Below, piece after piece: positions 16,857 to 51,118 of a stretch of DNA of 64,000 nt. The position numbers and the translations under genes were made by a program. Every line of letters starts with the position of its first letter. The stretch's first letter is position 1. The stretch comes from Bacteroidota bacterium (GTDB lineage Bacteria > Bacteroidota > Bacteroidia > B-17B0 > Aurantibacillaceae). Under the pieces are notes generated by a model. The model was not told the DNA's origin and made no database searches. It saw nothing but the letters and a program-made list of their open reading frames with translations. The stretch is from positions 2,527 through 66,526 of the forward strand of contig PLYA01000077.1 in the NCBI GenBank assembly GCA_003153315.1, in the 5' to 3' direction.

Positions 16857-16922
16857 GTTTTTTTTGTTTTTATTTCCTTGCCTACTCACTTAACGGCTTT
16901 TCGGCTTACTCCGTTTATTTAT

Positions 16923-17672
16923 TTAAGCCAAATTAATGGTTATGCAATTGCACCATGGGCCCGATTTTTCGGGGTGCACCACATCATACCAACGGAAGAA
17001 GATATACATAATTTTACCTGCGTTTGCCAGCTTAAAATCGTAAGGAAACAACGCATGGGTATCTATGCCCTGAAACGGACAATCTTCAGGCCCTTTAGGC
17101 GGTGCGGGTTGCACCTGCCCTGCGGCAACTCTGTCAACAATATCCCAGCTAAACTGTGGTATTTGCCCATCGGGGCTGCTGTGTTTGGTAGCATCGTGGC
17201 TGGTTTTGCAGCCTATCAGGTAGGTGCAAGAGCCTTTTGGGGTAAGAGATACTATTATTTGTTCTAAGATATGGTTGCCTGCGGTGCGCGCAGTGGCTAC
17301 GGGCAATAAACCCAAGGTGCCGTGGTTAGTAACCGTAAATGCTGAATTGTACAGCACGTTTTCCTTATTCCAGGGGCGCAGTGTGTTTTTTAAAAATAGT
17401 TTTTTGGCATTGGTAAAAGCCGTTGTTTGCACGCTGGTATGTGTGCCCTTTACCGATACGGGCGCCCATTTGGCTTGCAAATCGGTAATGCCGGGCACTA
17501 CTTTGTTTGCCCAGCTATTAAGCGCTCTTGCCGAAAAGTACGGAAACCCATCCGGCGCGTTTCCGGTAGTTATAAAGGCATTTATTTGTGCTAAAAAATT
17601 GGCAAGCCACGTCATAAACGGGTGGTTAGACGTAGGGATACTGCTTTTGGTTTTTTTCTTTATTAGTCCCAT
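16923..17672 (-). CDS. 249-aa protein of unknown function, copy 1 of a duplicated module
   Basis: Full-length ORF about 96% identical to 36491-37240. Ends KIMYIFFRWYDVVHPEKSGPWCNCITINLA. Confidence 0.85.
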   Translation of the reverse strand: MGLIKKKTKSSIPTSNHPFMTWLANFLAQINAFITTGNAPDGFPYFSARALNSWANKVVPGITDLQAKWAPVSVKGTHTSVQTTAFTNAKKLFLKNTLRPWNKENVLYNSAFTVTNHGTLGLLPVATARTAGNHILEQIIVSLTPKGSCTYLIGCKTSHDATKHSSPDGQIPQFSWDIVDRVAAGQVQPAPPKGPEDCPFQGIDTHALFPYDFKLANAGKIMYIFFRWYDVVHPEKSGPWCNCITINLA

Positions 17673-17723
17673 GGTTTTTGTTTTTTTGAGGTTTATATGA
17701 AGTTATAAGTTGCCTTTTTAACA

Positions 17724-17912
17724 TTTTTAGGGAAGGATAAACTAACTTGAGTGAAGGATAAACTATTTTTAGGTGAGGATAAACTAACCTGAGTGAGGGG
17801 TAAAGTTTCTCCGGTGAAGGGTAGAAAGTTTTTAGCGTAGCGTAGAAGTCTTAAAAGGTGGGGTGCAGAAACTAAACCGGTGTGTTTAGTAGTTAAAAAG
17901 TTGCGGGGGAGG
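17724..17912. repeat. Degenerate tandem array, exact 21-bp period, 9 units
   Basis: Consecutive 21-mers without indels: tttttagggaaggataaacta / acttgagtgaaggataaacta / tttttaggtgaggataaacta / acctgagtgaggggtaaagtt / tctccggtgaagggtagaaag / tttttagcgtagcgtagaagt / cttaaaaggtggggtgcagaa / actaaaccggtgtgtttagta / gttaaaaagttgcgggggagg. Confidence 0.85.
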
Positions 17913-24206: not shown

Positions 24207-24403
24207 GCATTTAGATAGAATCTTTAATTAACGGATAGATTAATTTGAAGGCTGGGATTCCAAATCTATGCTTTAAAAATTAAACTTTTTTCGATGATAG
24301 TCATGACTATTGTAGCAATAGTCATCAGTCTCATTACAATAGTCAACACTATCACTATGAAATTTTTACTTATTAGGGTAAAAAATGAAGTTTTTGGAAC
24401 TAA

Positions 24404-36490: not shown

Positions 36491-37240
36491 TTAAGCCAAA
36501 TTAATGGTTATGCAATTGCACCATGGGCCACTCTTTTCGGGGTGTACCACATCATACCAACGGAAGAAGATGTACATAATTCTGCCTGCGTTTGCCAGCT
36601 TAAAATCGTAAGGAAACAGGGCATGGGTATCTATGCCCTGAAACGGACAATCTTCGGGGCCTTTAGGCGGTGCGGGTTGCACCTGCCCTGCGGCAACTCT
36701 GTCAACAATATCCCAGCTAAACTGAGGTATTTGCCCATCGGGGCTGCTGTGTTTGGTAGCATCGTGGCTGGTTTTGCAACCTATCAGGTAGGTGCAAGAG
36801 CCTTTTGGGGTAAGGGATACAATTATTTGTTCTAAAGCAGTTCCACCTGCGGTGCGCGCAGTGGCTACGGGCAATAAACCCAAGGTGCCATGGTTAGTAA
36901 TGGTAAATGCCGAATTGTAGAGTACGTTTTCCTTATTCCAGGGGCGCAATATGTTTTTTAAAAATAGTTTTTTGGCATTGGTAAAAGCCGTTGTTTGCAC
37001 GCTGGTATGTGTGCCTTTTACCGATACGGGAGCCCATTTGGCTTGCAAATCGGTAATGCCGGGCGTTACCTTGTTTGCCCAGCTATTAAGCGCCCTTGCC
37101 GAAAAGTAGGGAAACCCATCGGGTGCGTTTCCGGTAGTTATAAAGGCGTTTATTTGTGCTAAAAAATTGGCAAGCCACGTCATAAACGGATGATTTGAGG
37201 TGGGTATGCTGCTTTTGGTTTTTCTTTTGGTTATTCCCAT
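36491..37240 (-). CDS. 249-aa protein of unknown function, copy 2 of a duplicated module
   Basis: Differs from 16923-17672 at about 10 residues; same position between a 21-bp array and a T9SS gene. Confidence 0.85.
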   Translation of the reverse strand: MGITKRKTKSSIPTSNHPFMTWLANFLAQINAFITTGNAPDGFPYFSARALNSWANKVTPGITDLQAKWAPVSVKGTHTSVQTTAFTNAKKLFLKNILRPWNKENVLYNSAFTITNHGTLGLLPVATARTAGGTALEQIIVSLTPKGSCTYLIGCKTSHDATKHSSPDGQIPQFSWDIVDRVAAGQVQPAPPKGPEDCPFQGIDTHALFPYDFKLANAGRIMYIFFRWYDVVHPEKSGPWCNCITINLA

Positions 37241-37300
37241 GATTTCCTGTTTTTATAGGTTTATTTTAACATTTAACTACTGAATTTAACATTTAGATGT

Positions 37301-37510
37301 GTGCAGGTAGTATTTGTATGTGTGCGTAAAGTATTTCTATCCCTGCGTAAAGTTTCTGTATGTGCGCATAAAGTATTTCTACTCGTGCGTAAAGTTTCTC
37401 TACTCGTGCAGGAAGTTTCTAAATGTGCGCGTAAAGTATTTCTACTCGTGCAGGGAATTTCTCTGCTCGTGCAATTAGAAACTAAAAACGTGTGTATAGA
37501 AACTAAGCGG
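37301..37510. repeat. Degenerate tandem array, exact 21-bp period, 10 units
   Basis: Consecutive 21-mers: gtgcaggtagtatttgtatgt / gtgcgtaaagtatttctatcc / ctgcgtaaagtttctgtatgt / gcgcataaagtatttctactc / gtgcgtaaagtttctctactc / gtgcaggaagtttctaaatgt / gcgcgtaaagtatttctactc / gtgcagggaatttctctgctc / gtgcaattagaaactaaaaac / gtgtgtatagaaactaagcgg. Confidence 0.9.
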
Positions 37511-37537
37511 CGTTGTTTAACAAACGCAGGCGAAAGT

Positions 37538-37584
37538 GCGGATTGCGGATTGCGGATTGCGGATTGCGGATTGCGGATTGCGGA
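37538..37584. repeat. Perfect 7-bp microsatellite (GCGGATT)x6.7
   Basis: gcggatt repeated six times plus gcgga, no mismatches. Confidence 0.95.
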
Positions 37585-49461: not shown

Positions 49462-50034
49462 ATGCCGGAAGGAAAACTTATTATATTTTCTGCCCCCTCA
49501 GGCTCAGGTAAAACAACCCTGGTGAGGCATTTGGTGGCAGTAATGCCCGATAAACTCCAGTTTTCTATTTCCGCCACCAGCCGTGCTAAAAGAGGTGCCG
49601 AAGAGCACGGTAAAGACTACCTCTATTTAACCTTCGAAGAATTTAAGCAAAAGATTGCAGACGGCGATTTTTTAGAGTGGGAAGAAGTATATCCAGGTAC
49701 CTATTACGGTACGCTTAAGAGCGAAGTTGAGCGCATTTGGGCAACAGGTAAAAACGTTATTTTTGATATTGATGTGCAAGGCGGATTAAACTTAAAATAT
49801 CATTTTAAGGATAAGGCTTTAGCTGTTTTTGTAATGCCGCCCTCAATAAAGATATTGGAAGAGCGTTTAAATTCACGCCAGACGGATAGCCCAGAAAGTA
49901 TTGCCCTACGAGTGGAAAAAGCAGAAAAGGAACTGCAAACTGCCAAGCTTTTTGATTGCTTTATTCTTAATGAACATCTAGAAACCGCCTGTAAAGAAGC
50001 TGAAAGACTGGTAGGTGATTTTTTAAAGAAGTAA
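49462..50034 (+). CDS. gmk: Guanylate kinase
   Basis: GKLIIFSAPSGSGKTTLVRHL, FSISATSRAKRGAEEHGKDYLYLT, FDIDVQGGLNLK. Confidence 0.96.
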   Translation: MPEGKLIIFSAPSGSGKTTLVRHLVAVMPDKLQFSISATSRAKRGAEEHGKDYLYLTFEEFKQKIADGDFLEWEEVYPGTYYGTLKSEVERIWATGKNVIFDIDVQGGLNLKYHFKDKALAVFVMPPSIKILEERLNSRQTDSPESIALRVEKAEKELQTAKLFDCFILNEHLETACKEAERLVGDFLKK

Positions 50035-50210
50035 AATCTTTATTGTTTGGGCTTTCCCCCACCGCAGGTGGGGTTGGGCTTTACACGCTGCATGGCAGCT
50101 TGCTATCAAATGCCTTTTTGGTATTCAGCGATACCGATAAAAATAATAAAGACGCTAAGGGTAAAAAGGCAAAAATTGCTTGTTTTAGGGCTTAAATTTG
50201 CTTTTGGAGG

Positions 50211-50630
50211 TCATCGAATTGTTGCGGATTATCATCGAATTGTTTCGGATTAGCGTTGTTTCGTTTCTGGAGACCGTCGAATTCGTTCGGATTGTCATTG
50301 TTTCGTGTGGGGAACATCATTGTTTCGTTTCCGGAGACCGTTGTTTCGCTTCAAGACATCATCGAATTTGTTCGGATTGTCATTGTTTCGTTTCAAGAGA
50401 GCGTTGAAAGCGCTTGGAACACCGTTGAACTGGTTCGGGATAGCATTGAACTATGGGGGAACATCATTGAATTGTGAGGAATGCCATTGAATTGCTTTGG
50501 AAGAGCATTGAACGAGTGGGGGATATCATAGAATTATTTAGGATTATCATTGAATAAATTGGGAAGGATGTTGAACGAGTGGGGAACATCATCGAATTTA
50601 TGCAGATATTCATTTCTCTGCAAGAAGATG
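50211..50630. repeat. Degenerate tandem array, about 20 units at 21-bp period
   Basis: Anchor (tcat/gcgt/ccgt/gcat)(t/c)gaa occurs at 50211, 50232, 50253, 50274, 50295, 50317, 50338, 50359, 50380, 50401, 50422, 50443, 50464, 50484, 50505, 50526, 50547, 50568, 50589, 50610. Confidence 0.9.
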
Positions 50631-50638
50631 TAAAAGAT

Positions 50639-51118
50639 TTAATCCGAGCTATCGTCGTTCAAAATATCGAATATCAAATCCTGCTCGTAGCCTTTACCGA
50701 TGGCATAGCGCACGAGTTTTTGTTTCTTCTTCAGATGATTTTTTTCGGTAATGGTTTTAGCTTTTTGTTCTAACACCTTTTTGAGTGTCTTTATATACTC
50801 GTTGCCATCAATTTCTTTTAATCCTTTTTGTATGCAGTAGTCGCTGATTCTACGAGCCTTTAATTCCTGTTTAATCTTAACCTTTCCCCACTTCTTTATT
50901 CGGAATTTTCCTCCGGCAAAAGCTTTGGCGAAACGTTCTTCGTTTACAAAGTTTTCGTCTATCAATCGGGCAATCAGGTTCTCCACATCATCACTTCTCA
51001 AGCCATAGCCATACAGTTTATCGCGCACCTCTTGCTGGCAGCGCTCCTGATAGGCGCACCAATCGCGTGCTTTTAAAAAAGCCTGTTGTGGTGTATGGTA
51101 CTTTATCTCCTTTTCCAT
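50639..51118 (-). CDS. recX: Regulatory protein RecX
   Basis: ALKARDWCAYQERCQQEVRDKL-type start, LIDENFVNEERFAKAFAGGKFRIKKWGKVKIKQELKARRI. Confidence 0.93.
   Translation of the reverse strand: MEKEIKYHTPQQAFLKARDWCAYQERCQQEVRDKLYGYGLRSDDVENLIARLIDENFVNEERFAKAFAGGKFRIKKWGKVKIKQELKARRISDYCIQKGLKEIDGNEYIKTLKKVLEQKAKTITEKNHLKKKQKLVRYAIGKGYEQDLIFDILNDDSSD

Follow-up and report, generated by a model that had tools for sequence, protein, structure and literature searches.

The window considered here, i.e., the whole stretch of 64,000 nucleotides that was analyzed, contains strong periodic signals at only three places (17.7, 37.3, and 50.2 kb), and among lags of 8–99 they belong to lag 21 and its multiples alone. 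The third of these, array 3, is a degenerate tandem array of 400 bp around which gmk and recX converge, with tatC also present in the flank. Its gene-sense strand is taken to be the minus strand because of homology with the C48 locus, one of two places elsewhere in the same genome (C48 and C57) that carry a related array. The features on which the analysis draws are the following.

50211..50611, minus strand: array 3, ~20 degenerate 21-bp units, GAAACAATGATGTTCC-type in the gene-sense strand
50602..50622, minus strand: 5′-side stretch AGAGAAATGAATATCTGC, common to the C57 sister array and outside the periodic part (alignment A5)
50140..50210, minus strand: 3′-side stretch CCTCCAAAAGCAAATTTAAG..., then decayed; homologous to the array–gene linker of C48 and C57, with no gene after it
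49462..50034, plus strand: gmk, guanylate kinase (PF00625), left flank; the block with its left neighbors is conserved in congeners
50639..51118, minus strand: recX (PF02631), right flank; the block with tatC is conserved in congeners, not adjoining gmk there
37290..37490, minus strand: array 5′ of a 249-aa family A gene (36491–37240, minus strand), with a promoter-like TTTG-N19-TAATTTTG on its 5′ side
17700..17890, minus strand: array 5′ of a second family A gene (16923–17672, minus strand); 96% identical protein, diverged units

Within array 3, sequence identity is 0.506 at lag 21, 0.513 at lag 42, and 0.499 at lag 63; in 2000 Markov shuffles, the identity at lag 21 was 0.268 ± 0.023, with a maximum of 0.343. 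Sliding windows place the onset of the period signal at ~50165 and its loss by ~50620. A wrap-around alignment identifies a +1 indel near 50197, at the edge, a second +1 near 50307, and a −1 near 50475, in agreement with an earlier note on this DNA that had counted one step of 22 and one of 20 that cancel. The same note had placed the array between converging gmk and recX and called it an orphan, with no homologue of the 249-aa protein adjoining, all of which is confirmed. Between gmk and array 3 lies a dispersed repeat (50106–50159) with 83–86% identical copies on C31 and C16.

A dispersed class of 21-bp arrays

The genome (G000) is a draft of 4.14 Mb in 105 contigs with an estimated contamination of 6%. 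A lag scan was carried out on 851 kb, consisting of 787 kb from five contigs plus the window and amounting to 20% of the genome. It yielded 82 periodic segments, of which ~55 have a period of 21 or its multiples, the remaining periods being represented by a few cases each, mostly within ORFs. After excluding five arrays inside long ORFs, 51 non-coding 21-bp arrays were counted, i.e., approximately one per 17 kb, which extrapolates to about 250 in the whole genome on the assumption of typical contigs in the sample. Units at different loci have unrelated sequences, and the 21-bp step is constant; within arrays, higher-order repeats of 42, 63, and 84 bp occur. The view that the period is a genome-level phenomenon, not one duplicated locus, is thus borne out by these 51 arrays with unrelated units. 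The earlier note had also named the result that would speak against it, namely that such arrays are a common, neutral low-complexity feature with many other periods; in the 851 kb scanned, non-coding periods other than 21 did not rise above sporadic cases. A short, weak, extra lag-21 stretch (z 6.5) was seen in the window at 24257–24392.

Stretches of 20–160 kb were also scanned in nine relatives. No 21-bp arrays were found in those from G003, G007, G040, G045, and G037, and some were present in G039, G041, G013, and G051, the densities for G039, G013, and G051 not being unbiased since their stretches were picked around family loci. In G037, which has no family A or C matches, three stretches of C23 (L152, L154, and L156) contain at least six arrays of 14-bp period within 100 kb, which might be a parallel class of a different step.

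Protein families and leader motifs at the arrays

Three paralogous families of small uncharacterized proteins with a β-sandwich tail and an N-terminus that looks helical from its sequence are found at arrays in the 851-kb sample. Family A is the 249-aa type; family B spans 200–260 aa, has an fn3 tail in two members, and its array is often 3′; family C is ~310–330 aa long, with a CarboxypepD_reg tail and a 5′ array. Among genes of 150–400 aa in a crude, non-overlapping ORF set, an array lies within 450 bp of 20/20 family genes versus 39/383 others (Fisher p = 9e-19), one family B gene being counted via a period-20 array and some ascertainment bias remaining, since the families were recognized partly through array-adjacent genes. 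Profile- and protein-based tests of families A and C at other loci are free of that bias. A family A profile (A1) recovered 30 homologues in the genome, all 30 with a lag-21 array, located 5′ of the gene in 29. In relatives, a single-protein search found the array at 11 of 13 family A loci. Family C was detected in 54/395 genomes of the class at a threshold of 1e-10, and a 5′ array, always of period 21, accompanies 22/31 further family C loci from ~25 genomes; one array-bearing locus belongs to a verrucomicrobial genome, a Spartobacteria MAG (L217). Families A and C keep their array link in other taxonomic families of the class; matches limited to the CarboxypepD_reg domain (L196–198) have no array. 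Complete members of the array class are cassettes of one array and one small protein gene, from family A, B, or C.

Pfam and NCBIfam gave no match for the 249-aa protein; families A and B match nothing in Pfam besides fn3, and C only CarboxypepD_reg. Searches against PDB profiles returned nothing convincing for A and just the CarboxypepD_reg tail for C, those against PHROGs only weak matches to tail or unknown-function families for B and C. No recognized DNA-binding domain and no match to Cas or defense models was found in families A–C, and PADLOC reported none. A phage or plasmid origin was considered and rejected: the family C protein had no match in phages or plasmids, one family A protein had none in plasmids, and alignment A3 of family A had none in viral contigs. 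Several individual cassettes deserve mention. L051 (C52:210504) and L052 (C44:79164) encode family A proteins with nearly the same C-terminal halves and different N-terminal halves, i.e., domain swapping between cassettes. At L044 (C99:32890) and L053 (C87:13311), well-kept arrays lie beside family A remnants of 37–51 codons, a possible intermediate toward orphan arrays. In L067 and L048, the array is on the 3′ side of the cassette, and in L067 the boxA-like motif described below is oriented so that the array is read toward the 3′ end of the gene, in antisense to it.

Directly 5′ of the array, ~12 of 39 loci carry a boxA-like motif, G[TC]TCTTTGA (a few with one change), which is the same motif found in the 16S leader of this genome (GTTCTTTGAAAG). 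A genome search with GKTCTTTGAA gave 27 sites, 23 of them GTTCTTTGAA, and this motif alone revealed arrays that the protein search had missed (e.g., L062, L067, and L072). A Bacteroidota-type promoter, TTG-N17-22-TAnnTTTG, precedes the array on its 5′ side at 10 of 38 loci, compared with two instances on the opposite strand and one between array and gene. At many family A loci, the promoter or boxA-like motif lies beyond the array as seen from the gene, and the arrays there are therefore probably transcribed. These observations support a rival explanation in which the array is a transcribed, untranslated RNA, forming the cassette gene's long 5′ leader in family A and some of family C, or its 3′ UTR in family B; with boxA antitermination, it would be a hairpin-rich RNA, a small-RNA precursor, or a leader controlling the downstream gene. 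In keeping with this, boxA upstream of CRISPR arrays promotes transcription (PMC7862264). We regard the RNA explanation as possible but rather doubtful. Nothing about an RNA obviously calls for a step of exactly 21 nt, and in three family C loci (C48, C104, and C16) a conserved promoter-like module is located between array and gene, and the array therefore lies upstream of the module.

Further elements were noted in leaders and elsewhere. Just before the family C gene, the leaders of C48, C104, and C16 (L127:1905–1990, L199, and L204) are conserved and contain interleaved complementary stretches, GCATAC..GTATGC and TGTAAGG..CCTTACA (TTGCAGG..CCTTGCAA in C16), a pattern that suggests a small pseudoknot RNA beside the start codon; Rfam has no match for these leaders and no array family. 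In the window, a perfect heptamer array, TGCGGAT × 6.9 (37537–37584), lies directly upstream of a 21-bp array, and related GCGGATA repeats occupy the same place in L003 and L004. Rfam matches to the DUF805b cis-regulatory RNA and the Flavo-1 RNA were obtained at 16879–16914 of the window and at L038:2878–2956.

Solo copies and a synteny breakpoint

BLAST against the same genome identified only two arrays related to array 3, at C57:142339–142751 and C48:8292–8571. All three have short stretches in common past the periodic part, and their outer flanks are unrelated. The C48 array is followed by a 324-aa family C gene, and the C57 array, a second solo copy, has no family gene and is located between converging genes for a fatty-acid desaturase and a CCG-domain protein. 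The nearest relatives of array 3 thus go with family C, not with the 249-aa family, and the proposal that orphan arrays sit near degraded 249-aa homologues proved wrong for array 3, which retains only a decayed stretch of array–gene linker.

In G005, the closest congener tested, the desaturase and CCG genes are 58 bp apart without an array. This is the presence/absence at an orthologous site expected of a mobile solo element, and it makes the G005 site an empty site, although loss in G005 is also possible; no terminal inverted repeats or target-site duplication are evident when the C57 site is aligned with its empty counterpart. For array 3, there is no orthologous empty site because the gmk–recX junction is new. 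The block ending in gmk and the recX–tatC block are each conserved but lie apart in the congeners tested, where neither block end has an array. Array 3 therefore marks a lineage-specific synteny breakpoint joining two gene blocks that are separate in congeners and is a solo, gene-less copy of the dispersed, genome-wide class of 21-bp-phased arrays. The CCG gene is found ~10 bp after gmk in G002, G004, and G001, and it now borders the C57 sister array. Sister arrays are thus present at both former neighbors (gmk and CCG), a hint, though no proof, that copies of the array were involved in the rearrangement. A reciprocal exchange between array 3 and the C57 array as the sole cause of the breakpoint is attractive since the CCG gene neighbors gmk in three congeners, but it is not proven since G005 has the desaturase–CCG arrangement without an array.

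The dispersed solo copies with unrelated flanks, one of them at a site that is empty in a congener, could instead belong to selfish or neutral minisatellites that grow through slippage and move along with small gene cassettes; the 21-bp step would then reflect the copying mechanism instead of a function. Block duplication, seen in the 42/63/84-bp higher-order repeats, and the wide differences in array number among relatives are in line with this idea. As tandem repeats with block duplications, and in having dispersed solo copies with presence/absence, the arrays resemble bacterial minisatellites, VNTRs, and REP- or MITE-like elements. Unlike these, the arrays have a constant unit length and specific protein families attached; at C57, terminal inverted repeats or target duplications are not evident. 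Unit length does not vary between loci as in VNTRs: nearly all non-coding arrays have period 21, and three in the 851-kb sample have period 20. Neutral minisatellites would be expected in many unit lengths, whereas here a single length recurs in unrelated sequences, at three protein families, and in many genomes, with an array at every one of the 20 family genes. Given the constant period and the protein link, a purely neutral minisatellite is disfavored, and we consider the selfish or neutral explanation unlikely.

Array spacing and comparison with known systems

A wrap-around alignment of 83 arrays contains 15,430 matches, 4755 mismatches, and 128 indel bases. Thirty-nine of the 83 have no indel at all, and those with exactly two indels combine an insertion with a deletion in 13 cases and two indels of the same sign in three, some of the compensated pairs possibly being alignment artifacts. 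Sequence is held far less tightly: the two family A proteins of the window are 96% identical, and their array units have strongly diverged.

A reading frame does not account for this pattern. Because 21 is divisible by 3 and open frames of 100–240 codons are present in some cases, the arrays might be decayed coding sequences for heptad repeats, seven codons being 21 bp, an explanation to which we attach hardly any weight. In 36 of 89 arrays, no frame is open in any of the six, which means that the arrays are not coding; where open frames exist, they occur on both strands, as expected of periodic DNA. The protein-coding alternative is thereby largely refuted, and the suggestion in the earlier note that the short ORFs are by-products of the seven-codon period is supported.

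Arrays fold better than column-permuted controls, in favor of the RNA explanation, but the excess is as large on one strand as on the other (Stouffer −14.0 and −13.6). Control pairs show compensatory changes just as often, and G-U pairs are not in excess. Array 3 folds no better than its column-permuted controls, and RNA hairpin arrays were rejected on these four grounds. Similarly, the inverted-repeat symmetry of units is significant on average, but it is not significant in array 3 or many other sampled arrays, and strictly palindromic units were rejected. From these results, we infer that the constraint acts on the step of two helical turns, not on sequence, coding, or RNA pairing. Neither conservation nor AA/TT content has a 10.5-bp sub-period, and predicted curvature (Bolshoy wedge model) does not exceed that of column-permuted arrays; the case for helical phasing therefore rests on step length and phase-keeping alone.

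Iterons are direct repeats spaced ~21–22 bp center to center. The arrays resemble iterons and plasmid centromeres in having many direct-repeat copies at a spacing of about two turns with the phase kept, and this defining spacing is found here, a step of 21 with rare indels. They differ in that each array has its own unit sequence, that ~250 are dispersed per genome, and that they lie beside families with β-sandwich tails; no Rep or Par DNA-binding domain was found in array-adjacent genes.

Like CRISPR loci, the arrays are linked to a protein gene and have a boxA-like leader of the kind found upstream of some CRISPR arrays (PMC7862264). In contrast to CRISPR, there are many per genome, and their contiguous 21-bp units are variable throughout, without a division into repeats and spacers. 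Cas genes are absent: array 3 is flanked by gmk, recX, and tatC, and families A–C match no Cas model. TIGR-Tas systems combine 36-nt units, two spacers, box C/D motifs, and a Nop-domain protein (PMC12045711). The likeness consists of a tandem array on one or the other side of a small protein gene and of a repeat that is conserved within a locus but different between loci, with palindromic variants known (PMC12045711); the arrays here have 21-bp units and no Nop domain. Membership of either CRISPR or TIGR-Tas was tested and fails on unit structure and associated proteins.

The same comparisons bear on whether these are guide-type arrays akin to TIGR or CRISPR, in which the variable parts of the units match target nucleic acids. 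Such a role would accommodate the pairing of an array with a small protein gene, the boxA leader, the unit variants within arrays, and an array content that changes faster than the protein; TIGR stem-loop arrays are likewise variable and palindromic (PMC12045711), and many units here have inverted-repeat symmetry. We nevertheless consider it highly improbable: there is no partition into constant repeats and unique spacers, the unit is 21 rather than ~36 nt, the proteins have no Nop, Cas, or nuclease domain, two units tested gave no exact match in viral contigs, and the family C protein has no phage or plasmid match, nor one family A protein a plasmid match.

Direct repeats of the heptamer TAACTGA are known from intergenic regions of Beggiatoaceae, Cyanobacteria, and Bacteroidetes (PMC4679880). 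They too form many intergenic tandem arrays near start codons, some of them in Bacteroidetes (PMC4679880), but there a single fixed heptamer is repeated, whereas here arbitrary 21-bp sequences share a fixed step and are linked to protein families. No description of such a class was found in the open-access literature or profile libraries searched; the arrays fit no array system described there.

Array 3 groups with the C48 array of the 324-aa family C cassette and with the second solo copy at C57. For the class as a whole, what is kept would be spacing, not sequence: exactly two helical turns (2 × 10.5 bp), so that every unit would show the same face of the DNA. Most likely, the array serves as a helically phased platform for the cooperative assembly of a protein beside the cassette promoter. 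That protein could come from the host, as a nucleoid or regulatory protein, or be encoded by the cassette itself. Unit sequence would drift and be homogenized within each array, and indels would be tolerated mainly if compensated. Array 3 lacks both the gene and the promoter module; it is probably a remnant in decay and a substrate for recombination rather than an active element. DNA is preferred over RNA because the C48, C104, and C16 arrays lie upstream of the promoter-like module and because covariation and a G-U excess are absent. Further observations weigh against a DNA platform: rapid unit turnover is hard to square with a sequence-specific binder, the probable transcription of many family A arrays suits an RNA role, and no DNA-binding domain is recognized in families A–C. 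The coding, RNA-hairpin, CRISPR, and TIGR readings fit worse. The data are best explained by a phased DNA element, with a transcribed leader RNA as the main rival and a neutral or selfish satellite third; taken whole, the reading of array 3 as a solo copy of the cassette class and of the arrays as helically phased platforms is plausible but tentative.

What sets the class apart is an exact 21-bp step despite unrelated locus sequences, a density of roughly one array per 17 kb, and a link to three small-protein families (p = 9e-19). Should selection act on the phase, this would be a DNA element whose identity lies in its geometry and not in its sequence, easy to overlook since sequence searches are blind to it. 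In its widest form, the proposal is an unrecognized array–protein system, with hundreds of sequence-free, 21-bp-phased arrays in a genome, every one of which would at first have had a small β-sandwich-tailed protein as its partner, across Bacteroidota and at least one Verrucomicrobiota genome; helical phase, not array sequence, would carry the function, and solo copies such as array 3 would also be rearrangement hot spots; so broad a claim we think possible, if on balance somewhat unlikely. For this genus, the arrays are a possible source of genome rearrangement.
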